Shown piece by piece: positions 57,847 to 64,000 of a stretch of DNA of 64,000 bases (its first letter is position 1; each line of letters begins with the position of its first letter). The notes under the pieces are model-generated. The model saw nothing but the letters and a program-made list of their open reading frames with translations. It ran no database searches and was not told the DNA's origin. Source of the stretch: an uncultured Saprospiraceae bacterium (GTDB lineage Bacteria; Bacteroidota; Bacteroidia; Chitinophagales; Saprospiraceae); assembly GCA_937921595.1 (NCBI GenBank), contig CAKZTD010000091.1:38682-102681 (forward strand), given 5' to 3'. The position numbers and the translations under genes were made by a program.

Positions 57847-58548
57847 TTAAATATACTTCTCCCGATTCTGAAGATTTAATAACGCCCCCAAGGTAAAAAC
57901 CAAAGTTCCTACACTTAAAAATATTCTGTTTTTCCAGACGATTTCCTGGAAAGCCAATTGAGTATATTGTCTTGGGTTACCAAAAGGGTTTAAAAAAATA
58001 TCCCAAAGTGTATCCTCTACTAATTCGCTAAAAATGGTTAAGAAAAACCCAAACAAAACCATGACTACTGCGGTTGCATTTCCGTTTTTTATTCGAGTGG
58101 CAAATAAAAAAGCTAAGCTCCCTAAAAAACATACTGGGAATAATAATTGTGCGGCTAGGGTTACCGGTTCTATGGGATACAACAACCAAGAGCCAACCGC
58201 AGCGAAAAGAATCAGCAGTACAAAAACTAATGAAAAAATTAATATCAAGCGAACCAGCCATACTTTATATCTATAATCCGGAATGCCAAATAGTATCTCC
58301 AGCATTCGTGCATCTTCATCGCGCTGTATTCCAAAAACCATCGGATAAAAAATCAGTAATAGAGCAGGGAAAAAAGTAATTTCATACAAGAAACCAATAT
58401 TAATTTCCACGTTATCAAAAACGCTGACGACCATAAAAAAAACATAAAAAGCTATAGCAGCCAATAGGAAAAGAAAAAACTTCCCTGCAAAAATAATCTT
58501 GAGGTTGTAACGGATAATCTTGCCTATGAGAATAAAGGAACTAATCAT
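57847..58548 (-). CDS. ABC-2 type transporter permease
   Basis: 233 residues, six membrane segments, with HGxx-like cytosolic loop FGIQRDEDARMLEILFGIPDYRYKVWLVRL before the third helix, as in Bacteroidota ABC-2 permeases. It lies downstream of the RND-ABC fusion, whose ATPase domain is the likely energy source. The ancestral start overlapped the fusion's stop; the two are now split by the tandem duplication at 58515-58890, which carries two more copies of the MISSF start region. This copy has an intact frame. The substrate is unknown. Confidence 0.75.
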   Translation of the reverse strand: MISSFILIGKIIRYNLKIIFAGKFFLFLLAAIAFYVFFMVVSVFDNVEINIGFLYEITFFPALLLIFYPMVFGIQRDEDARMLEILFGIPDYRYKVWLVRLILIFSLVFVLLILFAAVGSWLLYPIEPVTLAAQLLFPVCFLGSLAFLFATRIKNGNATAVVMVLFGFFLTIFSELVEDTLWDIFLNPFGNPRQYTQLAFQEIVWKNRIFLSVGTLVFTLGALLNLQNREKYI

Positions 58549-58890
58549 GGATTTTGATTTTATATTTCGCTAATCCAAATTGAGGACTAGCTGATGTGGC
58601 AAGTTACAAACTTGCCATTATACTCGACTTTCAAGTTACAGCCTCCTGCTGTCAGCTTTAAACTTAAAAGAGCAACGAATAATTCTGTCTATGAGAAGGA
58701 ACTAATCATGGATTTCCGTTTTTATATTTTGCTAATCCAAGTTGTGGACTAGCTGATGTGGCAAGTTACAAACTTGCCGTTATTGCTCCTCTTTCAAGTT
58801 ACAGCCTCCTACTGTCAGCTTTAAACTTAAAAGAGTAACGAATAATTCTGCCTATGAGAATAAAGGAACTAATCATGGACTTCCGTTTTT
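58515..58890. repeat. Tandem duplication of the gene junction (unit 161-167 bp)
   Basis: The segment TATGAGAATAAAGGAACTAA plus the start of the permease occurs three times (58521, 58690 and 58853; ATG starts at 58548, 58709 and 58876 on the minus strand). Between the copies sit two copies of a ~115-bp sequence with a perfect 8-bp hairpin GGCAAGTT/AACTTGCC. The two extra starts give dead-end frames: one of 25 codons (MISSFILIGRIIRYSFKFK...) and one of six. The rightmost copy supplies the end of the RND-ABC gene. Confidence 0.85.
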
Positions 58891-61800
58891 ATATTTTTCA
58901 ATAGGCACAAATAAGCATCTTCTAAAACTGGTTCTACCAAATAGGCTGCTTCATTGGGTTTCTTTTGTGCGATACATCGAACCCTTATCTTTTCTCCTTC
59001 TCGGATATGATTGACGATCACATGTTCTTCATCCTCATGTGCAAATTCTTCCGCAGGAATTTGATATTCCCAAATCAATCCGTCTGCTAGACGAACCATC
59101 TCCAATGGAGAACCTTTGTATTTAAGTTCTCCTTTATCGATCACGGCCAATTGGTTACAGGAACTAGCTATGTCTTCAATAATATGAGTGGAAAACAATA
59201 CGATCCGTTCTCTACTTAATTGGACGAGTAAGTTTCTAAACCGTATCCGTTCTCTAGGATCTAATCCTGCCGTAGGTTCATCCACAATTAGGATTCGAGG
59301 TAGGTGCAAAAGAATTTGAGCGATGCCAATTCGTTGTTTCATCCCACCAGAAAAGGAACCGATTTTTTCATCCTTTCGGTCTAACATATTGACCGAACCT
59401 AACACATATTCCAATCGTTCTTTACGGGCTATATTGTTGTTGATTCCTTTTAGTATCGCTTGATAATCGAGATAATTCCAAGCGGACATATTCTCATAAC
59501 TCCCGAATGCTTGAGGCAAATAACCGATTAATCCTTGCAACTCTTCTCGCTTCTCTTGAGTATCAATTCCGTTGATCCAAATCTTCCCATAACTCTGTTC
59601 AAAGATACCACTGATAACTCTCATTAATGTAGATTTTCCGGCTCCATTGGGGCCCAATAATCCAAACATCCCTGTTCCAATTTCCAAGGAAATTCCACTC
59701 AATGCTTTGAACGGTAATTGACGTTTTCCAACTATAGGAATATTGAGGATCATCCGATAAAAAAATCTTCGAAGTCGCCATTTGATTCTTTCAATTTTCA
59801 ATTCCTTTTTATAAAAATAAGATGCTGATTGTTGAATGATTAAAAACGAATACCAAAGTATCCCCAGTACAAATGCAAATCCCCAGCCATCCCATTTGGC
59901 ATTCAACTGAGATAACAAAATCATTGGACTTAACCAAAAAACCACGTTACCAAAAATTGTAAATACACGTTTCCACCATCGTCTTTCTCCCCATTTTAGC
60001 GCTCTTCCAAATGGACGCCAGATCTCTAGTATTTGTAAATATATCCCTACAGCTATTACCATCATCCAGAAGCCACTTTCTAAAAAACCAAAACAAAACC
60101 AAACTAAAAAAACAAGCAATGGTATTTGCCAAATCAAATCTTTTAGGATGGCGCCCCAAGGAATAGCGGTGTTCTTTGCCTCCCGAAATCCAGCCAATGA
60201 TTCGCTTCCAGACCACTCTCTTGAAAATCGTCCGGGACGGTTATATATCTTTACTAGGTTTTGTATTTGGATATAAGGTGCTACATCTTTTGGGATAATT
60301 TCTTCACTGGCTCTCTTTAAACTGGTTTGAATAAAATAGGTAATCCCAGGTAATAAAAAGACCATTAAAAGTACATCAGCCAATTGCCATAACATGGAGT
60401 CGATTCGAAAATAAATCAAGAAGGCTCCCACTGCAAATAATCCAAGATTTAAAAACTTAACCCACCAAGGTAAAGACCGAAACCATTCGATGGAATTTTC
60501 CAGTCCAAGGTAAACGGTCGGTATAAGAATCAAAGTCAAAATAGTCCCCAAGGCCAAACCTCCAATAACGGTAATCGCAAAAGGTGCTCCGATCACACTT
60601 ACATATTCTGCCGTTCCTAAAGCCAATGGAATCATTGCAACAATTGTAGTAATAGCGGTAATCAGAATTGGTCGTAATCGATGAAGACCAGCAGTCATCA
60701 AGGCACGAGTTTTCCTATATCCTTTACGTCGTAGGGCATTGACGTAATCGATCATGATGATCCCATTATTGACGATGACCCCGAGTAAGATTAGAAAGCC
60801 AGTTAGAGTATTTGCATTCAATAAACTATTGCCCGTGATCGCTAAGCCCAACAAAGCTCCGGTTGCTGCCAAAGGAACAGAAAAGCCCAAAACAAAAGGA
60901 GCAGAAAGCGATTCAAAAACCGAAGCCAGTATAATAAAAATAAGCAAGACTGCCGCTCCAACTAATGGTTTAAAATCTTTGAGTTGATCTTGCGCAGAAA
61001 TCATTTCGATCGCCACTCCAGGAGGAATAGGATAGTTACTAATTAAGCTAGTAATGCTTTCCGTGTAAGCATCTAGCAATTCTTTGGATTGCTCTGCCTG
61101 TCTCGATGGAGCATAAATTAATTCAATTTGTTTTTGCTGATTAATCCGTCTGATATCATCATTACCTTGCGCCGTTCGGATCGCAGAGATGTTTTTCATT
61201 TTATGAATTCTACCTTGCTGATCCCTTACTTCTAACTCCTTTAAATCATCCATAGACTTTGTCTGGAATCCGGCTTCCTCCGTTTCACTTTCTCTAATGA
61301 TGATGTTGTAATCTTCATTTCCATATTTAAAATTGGTACCTGAAGGAGACTCTTGTCCAAAATCTCTTAAGGCCATTGCAATATTCTCTGGAGTAATATT
61401 ATTCCTAGCCATTGTCAAAGGATCAAATGCCAATAATGCTTCAGGGCTACTGCCCCTGGTACTCAAATTGGCATTTCGGGTTTCGTTCAGGTTTTCGATA
61501 TGATATAATAAATCTTGTCCTACCCTTTGCAACAAGGAATAATCTTCTCCTTTGATAACAATTCGCTCTTGATTATTTCCAAATCCCATTAAGGCTCCCA
61601 TTGCACCCATCCCTCCGATATCTTGTCCTCCACCTCCGCCGCCACTACTTTCCTGAGACAAACTGATCGTACCTCCACCAATTCGGCGAGTCAGTTGCTC
61701 TATTTGATGTTTGATTTCATTAAAAGATCTGCCATCAATATCTTTAAAGTCTTTTTTCAACTTGATACTTACCACCCCATCTTCCGCTCTGATTCGACTA

Positions 61801-63575
61801 CTAACATCTTCTTTCTCTTTGATGTCTGCAATCTTAGATTCGACCTCTTGCACGATCTTATCTGTTTTCTCCAGCGTACTGCCTTTTGCCATATTGACAA
61901 AAACATCAATCTTATCGGTCTCTACTTCTTCTAAGGTGTTTACACTGATCGCCAACACAACAAAGGTGGTAACAAAAAACAATAACAGTCCTCCAATAAT
62001 GGTTCGGGCAGGATAACGCAAACTACTTTTCAACATTACCATGTAGATCCGTTCCGTCCGAGTTTTTACTTTCGATAAATTAAAAACTGATTTTTTTTGT
62101 TTTGGATTTTTGCCCAAGACCAAAGCAGCAAGTACAGGGATCAATAAAAGCGCTACTAGTAAAGACATCATCAAAGTAGAAATAATAGAAACCCCAATGT
62201 TTTTACCAATGATATTCAATAAGTAGTTTCCAAAAAAGATAAAAGGTAAAAAGACAGTTGCGGTAGTTAAGGTCGCCGCCAAAATTGCTTTGGCTACTCC
62301 GATAACACCTTGGCTCGCAGCTTCCTTCGTAGAGCTTCCTCCTGACACTAAACGATATATATTTTCTAATACCACAATACTATTGTCCAGCAGCATCCCG
62401 ACGGCCAAGGCCATTCCAATTAATGTAAGACTGTTGATGCTAATACCTGCCCAGTAAAAAAAATTAAAGGCAGCCAAAACTGATACTGGGATAGAAACAG
62501 CTATAATGGAAATCAACCGAAGATCTTTTAGAAAAACCCACAATACCAAAACTGCTAGCAAACCTCCGATCAGCGCCAAATTGATGATCTGTCCAATATT
62601 GTCTTCCATATTATCCGCCAAGTTCTGCTGAATAACTATTTGAACATCTTTGGATCGCAGTTGCTCATTCAATTCTTCAATCAATTCCTGACAACGATGT
62701 GAAAGATCAATAATGTTGGCTTGTGAAGATTTGGTCGCGGTCAGAGAAATAGCATCCTTTCCATTTACTCGACTGATGGAGGTACCTTCATCCACTCCAA
62801 AAGAAATTTTAGACACATCTTTCAATGAAATAGGACCGGGTGCCATAACTATATTTTCGATGTCTTTTAGCTCCGTATACTCTGATGCTGTTCGGATAAA
62901 ATATCTTCGTTTGCCCTCATAAAGATAACCTGCCAATGTACGGCTACCCGAATTTTGATTGAGCTTTGAACGTACCGTTTCAGGCGTAATGTTATGCGGT
63001 TCGCAGGCAGATTTGTCTAGTAGAATTTCAAGATTTTTTTGTCGCCCACCGAAGACATTAATCGATGCAATTCCGTTTAGATTTTCAAAAGCTGGACGAA
63101 TTTCTTGCTCCGTAATATTTCGTAAACGATCGGTACCACCGCTACCTCGAATTTGTAAATCCAAAAACTGATTGGTCAATTGTTGCAAATCAATTTTGGA
63201 TACATTTACAAACAAGTCGGTGGGTAAGGTTGTTTTTACCGCATCAATTTTTTGTTGTAATTTTAAAAAGACATACTTAAAACGGACACCCTGCTTGAAG
63301 CTTACTTGAATAAAAGCTTGATTTCCACTAATCCTACTATCAATTTTTTCTACTCCTTCCAAAGTTCCAATTGCACCTTCTACAGGAATGACTCCTTGCT
63401 GCTCTAAATATTGTGGACTGACGGAAGTAGCCGAAGCTATTTGTACAAACAACATTGGCAATTCCGCATTGGGTAACAACTCTACCGGCAAGCGATTGTA
63501 GGAAATATATCCTAACAAACTCAGACCGATGAAGATCATACAAATCGTTACTTTCCTTTGGATCAGCGCCATCAT
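58869..63575 (-). CDS. RND-type efflux permease fused to an ABC transporter ATPase
   Basis: 1568 residues in one uninterrupted frame, starting with ATG 63575, which overlaps the stop of the upstream RND gene by 4 bp (ATGA). Residues 1 to about 1030 are a complete RND permease: LPVELLPNAELPML near the start, TM4 GMALAVGMLLDNSIVVLEN and TM10 LLGVIVNNGIIMIDYVNALRR. Then come two helices (about 1035-1085), a strand IQIQNLVKIYN (about 1100), a membrane insert with four more helices (1145-1260) and an ABC ATPase: Walker A LLGPNGAGKST (about 1307), Q-loop YLPQAF, signature FSGGMKQRIG, Walker B LIVDEPTAGLD and H-loop STHII. All ATPase motifs are intact. Export across the inner membrane is expected; the substrate is unknown. 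Confidence 0.9.
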   Translation of the reverse strand: MMALIQRKVTICMIFIGLSLLGYISYNRLPVELLPNAELPMLFVQIASATSVSPQYLEQQGVIPVEGAIGTLEGVEKIDSRISGNQAFIQVSFKQGVRFKYVFLKLQQKIDAVKTTLPTDLFVNVSKIDLQQLTNQFLDLQIRGSGGTDRLRNITEQEIRPAFENLNGIASINVFGGRQKNLEILLDKSACEPHNITPETVRSKLNQNSGSRTLAGYLYEGKRRYFIRTASEYTELKDIENIVMAPGPISLKDVSKISFGVDEGTSISRVNGKDAISLTATKSSQANIIDLSHRCQELIEELNEQLRSKDVQIVIQQNLADNMEDNIGQIINLALIGGLLAVLVLWVFLKDLRLISIIAVSIPVSVLAAFNFFYWAGISINSLTLIGMALAVGMLLDNSIVVLENIYRLVSGGSSTKEAASQGVIGVAKAILAATLTTATVFLPFIFFGNYLLNIIGKNIGVSIISTLMMSLLVALLLIPVLAALVLGKNPKQKKSVFNLSKVKTRTERIYMVMLKSSLRYPARTIIGGLLLFFVTTFVVLAISVNTLEEVETDKIDVFVNMAKGSTLEKTDKIVQEVESKIADIKEKEDVSSRIRAEDGVVSIKLKKDFKDIDGRSFNEIKHQIEQLTRRIGGGTISLSQESSGGGGGGQDIGGMGAMGALMGFGNNQERIVIKGEDYSLLQRVGQDLLYHIENLNETRNANLSTRGSSPEALLAFDPLTMARNNITPENIAMALRDFGQESPSGTNFKYGNEDYNIIIRESETEEAGFQTKSMDDLKELEVRDQQGRIHKMKNISAIRTAQGNDDIRRINQQKQIELIYAPSRQAEQSKELLDAYTESITSLISNYPIPPGVAIEMISAQDQLKDFKPLVGAAVLLIFIILASVFESLSAPFVLGFSVPLAATGALLGLAITGNSLLNANTLTGFLILLGVIVNNGIIMIDYVNALRRKGYRKTRALMTAGLHRLRPILITAITTIVAMIPLALGTAEYVSVIGAPFAITVIGGLALGTILTLILIPTVYLGLENSIEWFRSLPWWVKFLNLGLFAVGAFLIYFRIDSMLWQLADVLLMVFLLPGITYFIQTSLKRASEEIIPKDVAPYIQIQNLVKIYNRPGRFSREWSGSESLAGFREAKNTAIPWGAILKDLIWQIPLLVFLVWFCFGFLESGFWMMVIAVGIYLQILEIWRPFGRALKWGERRWWKRVFTIFGNVVFWLSPMILLSQLNAKWDGWGFAFVLGILWYSFLIIQQSASYFYKKELKIERIKWRLRRFFYRMILNIPIVGKRQLPFKALSGISLEIGTGMFGLLGPNGAGKSTLMRVISGIFEQSYGKIWINGIDTQEKREELQGLIGYLPQAFGSYENMSAWNYLDYQAILKGINNNIARKERLEYVLGSVNMLDRKDEKIGSFSGGMKQRIGIAQILLHLPRILIVDEPTAGLDPRERIRFRNLLVQLSRERIVLFSTHIIEDIASSCNQLAVIDKGELKYKGSPLEMVRLADGLIWEYQIPAEEFAHEDEEHVIVNHIREGEKIRVRCIAQKKPNEAAYLVEPVLEDAYLCLLKNIKTEVHD

Positions 63576-64000
63576 GGGTTAGCCTTTTTTCCTCCAAAAT
63601 CGAATATGGCATAGACACAAGGAATCACCACTAAAGTTAATAAAGTGGAAGTGACCAAACCTCCAATCACCGCCCATGCCATAGGTGCTCTCAAAGAAGC
63701 ACTTTCACCGAAACCAAATGTCAATGGAAGCAAGGCCAAGACGGTTGTCAAACTTGTCATTAAAATAGGTCGTATCCGTTGTTGCCCTGCTTGGACAATA
63801 GCATCATATTTATCAAGACCACCTCTCTTCAATTGATTGATTCGATCAACGAGAATAATCGCATCATTGACCGCAATACCAACCAGCATGATTATTCCGA
63901 TAATCGCCATAATGTTGAGCGGCGTTTGTAACCAATAAAAAGTGGCAATCGTACCGACAACCGCTAAAGGAATCGTCAACAAAATAGTAAATGGATGTAT
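63572..64000 (-). CDS. RND efflux permease, C-terminal part (5' end outside window)
   Basis: 142 codons remain in frame up to the window edge. They cover the last membrane segments of an RND permease: LTIPLAVVGTIATFYWL, GIAVNDAIILVDRINQLKRGG (TM10 region), RPILMTSLTTVLALLPLTFG and GLVTSTLLTLVVIPCVYAIFD. Its TGA overlaps the start of the fused RND-ABC gene, so the two are translationally coupled. Tandem RND genes suggest a heteromeric MdtBC-like pump; the adaptor and outer-membrane factor would lie upstream of the window. Confidence 0.87.
   Translation of the reverse strand: MHPFTILLTIPLAVVGTIATFYWLQTPLNIMAIIGIIMLVGIAVNDAIILVDRINQLKRGGLDKYDAIVQAGQQRIRPILMTSLTTVLALLPLTFGFGESASLRAPMAWAVIGGLVTSTLLTLVVIPCVYAIFDFGGKKANP

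Follow-up and report, generated by a model that had tools for sequence, protein, structure and literature searches.

Can a single polypeptide combine an RND permease with an ABC ATPase, and if so, how might the two work together? In Gram-negative bacteria, RND pumps are the standard example of export driven by ions and ABC exporters that of export driven by ATP, and a gene joining the two was predicted in the window, the 64,000-nucleotide stretch of DNA from an uncultured Saprospiraceae bacterium analysed here.

A fusion of RND permease and ABC ATPase

The fusion gene (58869..63575, minus strand) is a single frame that runs from ATG to stop over 1568 codons, and the same frame is found in relatives. 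The original prediction named no strand, and translation of the plus strand over these coordinates gives many stops. Pfam identifies ACR_tran at residues 4-1023 (531 bits; positions 5-1018 of the 1021 of the profile), a full-length match that includes the porter loops and the 12-helix core and places the RND permease part, here called RND2, at residues 1-1027 (60495..63575, minus strand). ABC_tran matches residues 1294-1436 (97 bits; positions 3-137 of 137). Translation and Pfam thus confirm the predicted uninterrupted frame, and the suggested domain search finds in it both a full-length ACR_tran and a motif-intact ABC_tran.

An assembly error, or a missed stop linking two adjacent genes, is hardly conceivable as the source of this frame. 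The draft assembly consists of 465 contigs, and we found no support for such an artefact; the same joint recurs at 30 loci of other public records, including those of named strains, and in three further genomes, and purifying selection acts across it. Substitutions over the inserted stretch are mostly synonymous, and dN/dS is 0.06-0.28 in seven of eight pairs, with several dS values near saturation and dS not computable in the eighth. Both the chimeric assembly and the hidden stop or frameshift that the original prediction had named as refuting it are therefore rejected. The sequence comparisons support a fusion that is real, old and constant, with both halves apparently intact.

Distribution of the fusion

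Searching public records with the linker between the two halves identified the 30 loci, at 29 of which it is in frame with an ATPase (partial in L046); the contig of the thirtieth, L074, ends before the ATPase. Twenty-two of the frames are complete (1560-1588 aa), five are cut at the 5′ side and three at the 3′ side. The record titles name Saprospiraceae, Portibacter, Lewinella, Prolixibacteraceae, Bacteroidales, Porphyromonadaceae and other Bacteroidota, and the strains that carry the fusion include Portibacter lacus YM8-076, Portibacter marinus 10MBP4-2-1 and Prolixibacteraceae JC049, so the system can be tested experimentally. The three further genomes have frames of 1561, 1577 and 1640 aa, and two of them are from outside the class to which the window belongs. 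Relatives in which the two halves are always separate genes, which would have spoken against the prediction, were not seen: the RND part is in frame with the linker at all 30 loci and in the 6/6 genomes of a phylum sample that have this RND subfamily.

That sample comprises 395 genomes, in which the linker matches seven (one weakly), the RND part six at E 1e-130 or better, and the 233-aa permease encoded downstream of the fusion (see below) seven (one weakly); the strong matches of all three are in the identical six genomes. The frames holding the six RND matches are 1561-1640 aa long, and no unfused member of this RND subfamily thus occurs in the 395-genome sample. A sample of the order gives a linker match in seven of 396 genomes, one of these weak, and four genomes of the same genus have no match at the level of the fusion, the best (E 1.3e-68) being to separate ATPases. 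Judged by these searches, the distribution of the fusion is patchy. Viral contigs scanned with the linker gave no match, and partial matches near E 1e-3 in three genomes (G007, G717 and G509) were discounted as chance.

In a tree of ATPases the fused ones (31 rows) form one clade with support 100/99, apart from the ATPases encoded by the first gene of the operon described below (8 rows) and from other unfused ATPases (13 rows). We infer that the fusion arose once, within the sampling here. The tree has no outgroup and carries a long-branch warning, and we use the single clade of the fused ATPases and not the joining of the fused and first-gene ATPases. A longer version of the fusion occurs in genome G738 (L092:1665-6584), whose 1640-aa frame is lengthened both within the middle of the RND part and behind the first strand of the ATPase.

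An ATPase divided by predicted membrane helices

Beyond the RND part, the structure model and the hydropathy of the family predict two membrane helices (residues 1037-1090; 60306..60467, minus strand), and these are followed by the segment IQIQNLVKIY (residues 1102-1111; 60243..60272, minus strand), which by profile corresponds to the first strand of an ABC ATPase with its conserved tyrosine. An insertion of ~174 residues (1112-1285; 59721..60242, minus strand), with borders inferred to within a few residues and four membrane helices predicted by the model (about 1140-1256), comes next. The remaining ATPase and a C-terminal tail (residues 1286-1568; 58872..59720, minus strand) contain the ABC_tran match and the Walker A motif GPNGAGKST (residues 1308-1316; 59628..59654, minus strand). 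The motifs Walker A, Q-loop, signature, Walker B/D-loop and H-loop follow one another in order and are nearly invariant in the 32-33 of the 34 fusion sequences (a set that includes the window's own) that extend to them. The original prediction of a complete, motif-intact ABC ATPase therefore holds for the motifs and fails for contiguity, as the domain is split by the membrane insertion.

In 15 unfused ATPases the first strand has the form xIxIxNLSKxY and GPNGAGK follows 22 residues later, whereas in the window the first strand and its invariant tyrosine lie 196 residues before Walker A. A profile of the first strand made from these 15 ATPases ranks IxIQNLVKIY highest among all sites upstream of Walker A for 33 of the 34 fusions (another site scores higher in L061), and where it is the best site the distance to Walker A is 188-229 residues, which is not the arrangement of a contiguous ATPase domain. 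The scores exceed the top of 200 shuffles per linker (14.7) in 20 of the 34 sequences and do not in the other 14. Tyr1111 is invariant in all 34, and we take it to be the residue whose aromatic ring stacks on the ATP adenine in ABC ATPases. A model of the linker and ATPase is of moderate quality (pLDDT 73, pTM 0.50) and has a strand at residues 1102-1107, and Foldseek searches with it return ABC ATPases as the top matches. The simplest reading of the sequences and the model is that the residues bearing the four predicted helices are inserted into the ATPase. The C-terminus of AcrB is cytosolic, and since the model has even numbers of helices before and after the first strand, both pieces of the ATPase would be on the cytosolic side.

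The profiles nearest to the ATPase are those of GldA and DrrA, and its scores are under the curated cut-offs of both (166 of 402.6 and 155 of 312.45 bits, respectively). Pfam has no match for the window's linker. Weak and scattered matches of other members of the family (best DUF5326, E 5.8e-4, in 3/31), and PDB profile matches of the linker to sphingosine-1-phosphate receptor 3 and to an ABCC3 chain (E 0.002-0.09), were judged to reflect membrane-helix composition. Derivation of the linker from a degenerate copy of the downstream permease is not supported by hhalign (probability 0.4%, E 0.14).

The RND part and its relay positions

The solved chain nearest to the RND part is MdtB (9lyq_B), and the fusion scores 450 bits against the multidrug RND subfamily NF033617, below its curated cut-off of 1250. 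The predicted retention of the TM4 carboxylate is borne out, in that D-N-S of the motif LLDNS (residues 395-399; 62379..62393, minus strand) is invariant in the 29 of 29 sequences covering it. Only the first of the two TM4 aspartates of MdtB is present, the position of the second being Asn in the fusion (D-N in 29/29 covering sequences), and the TM10 lysine of MdtB is Asn in 34/34 fusion sequences, so that a relay of two aspartates and a lysine is not found. Three polar residues of TM10/TM11 (D943, R968 and T973) are invariant in the family. The same relay replacements are present in RND1, the permease encoded upstream of the fusion, and in another RND of the same genome that has no ATPase (L002), and they are thus not a sign of decay in RND2; the RND frames L001, L004 and L006 of the genome escaped the motif patterns of this comparison. 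With the relay lysine absent, proton coupling of RND2 is uncertain, and with it the suggestion in the original prediction that both energy systems could be live.

Organization of the operon

Seven genes are present in the same order in all eight genomes read that far upstream (the window's own, G018, G066, G079, G378, G516, G736 and G738): from upstream to downstream, an ABC ATPase, an ABC-2/M1-like permease, TolC, a membrane fusion protein, RND1, the RND2-ABC fusion and a permease. The tripartite partners are an OEP gene (outer-membrane factor) and an HlyD_D23 gene (membrane fusion protein). In the window's genome the operon spans two contigs. The window ends where its contig ends, within the gene for the partner permease RND1 (3′ end at 63572..64000, minus strand), and contig C274 overlaps the end of the window by 141 identical bases and holds the remainder of RND1 and four more genes. 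The downstream half of the operon of G066 is locus L053.

Of the 25 loci whose upstream sequence exceeds 500 bases, 23 have RND1 as the next matched gene upstream of the fusion. At L050 (412-6890) the operon is broken, RND1 and the fusion being separated by ~6.5 kb in which there are at least three long frames unrelated to it, and L046 has no RND1 within its 843 upstream bases; tight co-expression is thus not universal. In L062 (3802-6805), on a metagenome contig, RND1 is in two overlapping frames, possibly through a frameshift or an assembly error.

The head of the operon, which was absent from the original prediction, is a further pair of ABC ATPase and permease (L043:2469-6683, with equivalents in seven other genomes). 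The second gene encodes a permease of ~1090-1130 aa with weak matches to ABC-2 and Peptidase_M1, and in this resembles the ABC-2/M1 peptidase fusions classed as TC 3.A.1.145 (Myxococcus Q1D520) in PMC3924187. Unlike these, it has no HEXXH zinc motif in its M1-like domain in 8/8 genomes, and in the window's genome it ends in a Golvesin_C domain at the C-terminus. From its sequence, the M1-like domain is possibly a dead peptidase that serves as a binding domain.

The downstream permease

Directly downstream of the fusion is a gene for a 233-aa permease with six helices (57847..58548, minus strand), which is tentatively ABC-2/type V-like by fold prediction and homologue matches. The predicted permease gene is thus present, and its likeness to ABC-2 is weak by E-value. 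The window's protein itself has no match in Pfam or NCBIfam, and among 31 homologues ABC2_membrane_3 is matched by four and ABC2_membrane_2 by one, below E 0.05. The model has six helices (pLDDT 82), and the top Foldseek matches are CcmB, PmtCD (PmtD), NosDFY (NosY) and ABCG2; their probabilities are close to 1, but their E-values are 0.05 or worse. The permease is the next gene downstream of the fusion in 27 of the 30 loci, the contigs of the other three ending within the fusion. These neighbourhoods, together with the six genomes shared in the phylum sample, show a permease that is exclusively associated with the fusion and apparently dedicated to it.

Comparison with known transporters

The system resembles MdtABC-TolC, an HAE-1 RND pump, in its full-length ACR_tran and in having two RND genes in one operon with genes for a membrane fusion protein and an outer-membrane factor. 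It differs from MdtB and MdtC in the C-terminal ABC ATPase, six extra predicted helices, and replacement of the relay lysine and one TM4 aspartate. MacAB-TolC likewise combines TolC and a membrane fusion protein with an inner-membrane protein that carries a fused ABC ATPase. In contrast to MacAB-TolC, the ATPase here is joined to an ACR_tran RND permease, at whose C-terminal end it lies in split form, and it probably works in transport with a separate permease. PMC8277102 describes MdtBC as a rare heterotrimer and the NBD of MacB as fused on the N-terminal side of its permease. Comparison with ABC-2 and type V exporters (NosFY, PmtCD and the GldA-DrrA type) puts the ATPase nearest to GldA/DrrA and the permease, in predicted fold and at weak E-values, nearest to CcmB, PmtD, NosY and ABCG. 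Unlike in these exporters, the ATPase is interrupted, lies within an RND protein and scores under the GldA and DrrA cut-offs. Each half thus has near relatives among known proteins (MdtB; GldA/DrrA-type ATPases; type V permeases) yet is far under the nearest NCBIfam cut-offs, and neither the union of the halves nor the split ATPase fits the layout of these families. We found no description of such an RND-ABC fusion in the open-access literature, a scope that makes the absence weak evidence.

Possible functions

We see about an even chance that the locus encodes a composite tripartite exporter in which an ATP-driven inner-membrane step is tethered to an RND pump. RND1 and RND2 would form a mixed RND trimer like that of MdtB/MdtC, which together with the membrane fusion protein and TolC would move substrate from the periplasmic side to the outside. 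The cytosolic C-terminal ATPase of RND2 and the 233-aa permease would provide an ATP-driven step across the inner membrane, or flipping within it, and substrate could be passed directly from this step to the RND pump and out through TolC. With the first strand and tyrosine of the ATPase preceding the four predicted helices and its remainder following them, we propose that the membrane domain is mechanically coupled to ATP binding. The MdtB/MdtC trimer has a ratio of 2:1; with RND2 as the doubled subunit, each trimer would carry two ATPases.

The joining of the ATPase to RND2 at every locus that extends to it, its division around membrane helices, and the absence of the relay lysine and the second TM4 aspartate would also suit an arrangement in which the split ATPase drives or gates the RND2 cycle via the inserted helices, the RND part being not, or not solely, ion-driven and the permease acting as a scaffold or gate. 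This more novel reading is alive, and we consider it unlikely: RND1 and another RND without an ATPase show the same relay replacements, the family retains the first TM4 aspartate, D943, R968 and T973 without variation, and the fusion always has a neighbouring permease of ABC-2-like predicted fold. A plainer arrangement, in which an ordinary RND pump and an ABC exporter are fused for co-assembly or dosage and function independently on the same or different substrates, would account for the intact motifs of each half and for the ABC half having a permease of its own. A split ATPase and a 260-residue membrane linker under purifying selection are not expected of a simple tether, however, and a separated version was not seen; we regard this arrangement as improbable.

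Should ATP coupling to the RND part be demonstrated, there is a fair chance that the composite exporter would represent a new class of transporter. The fullest form of such an ATP-coupled RND, in which the ATPase of RND2 is threaded through the membrane, its nucleotide state moves inserted helices packed on the RND bundle, RND1 supplies the ion-driven steps, and the seven products assemble into a single machine across the envelope that has two ATPases along with two RND subunits, is tentative and falls well short of an even chance. A natural protein with both types of energy source, conserved phylum-wide, lets the powering or gating of an RND cycle by ATP be tested, as well as direct coupling of the cytosol-to-periplasm step to the periplasm-to-outside step, and an ABC ATPase interrupted by membrane helices would, if true, link the binding of nucleotide to a membrane domain in a novel manner.

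Repeats between the fusion and permease genes

The fusion and permease genes abut or overlap in many relatives, and in the window they are separated by 320 bases of duplicated repeat material (58549..58868, minus strand), consisting of two ~162-base units that copy the gene junction. The units carry a hairpin element of ~75 bases (GGCAAGTT...AACTTGCC), and a search of the window's genome with a 143-base query gives 41 matches, the majority over the hairpin element alone.
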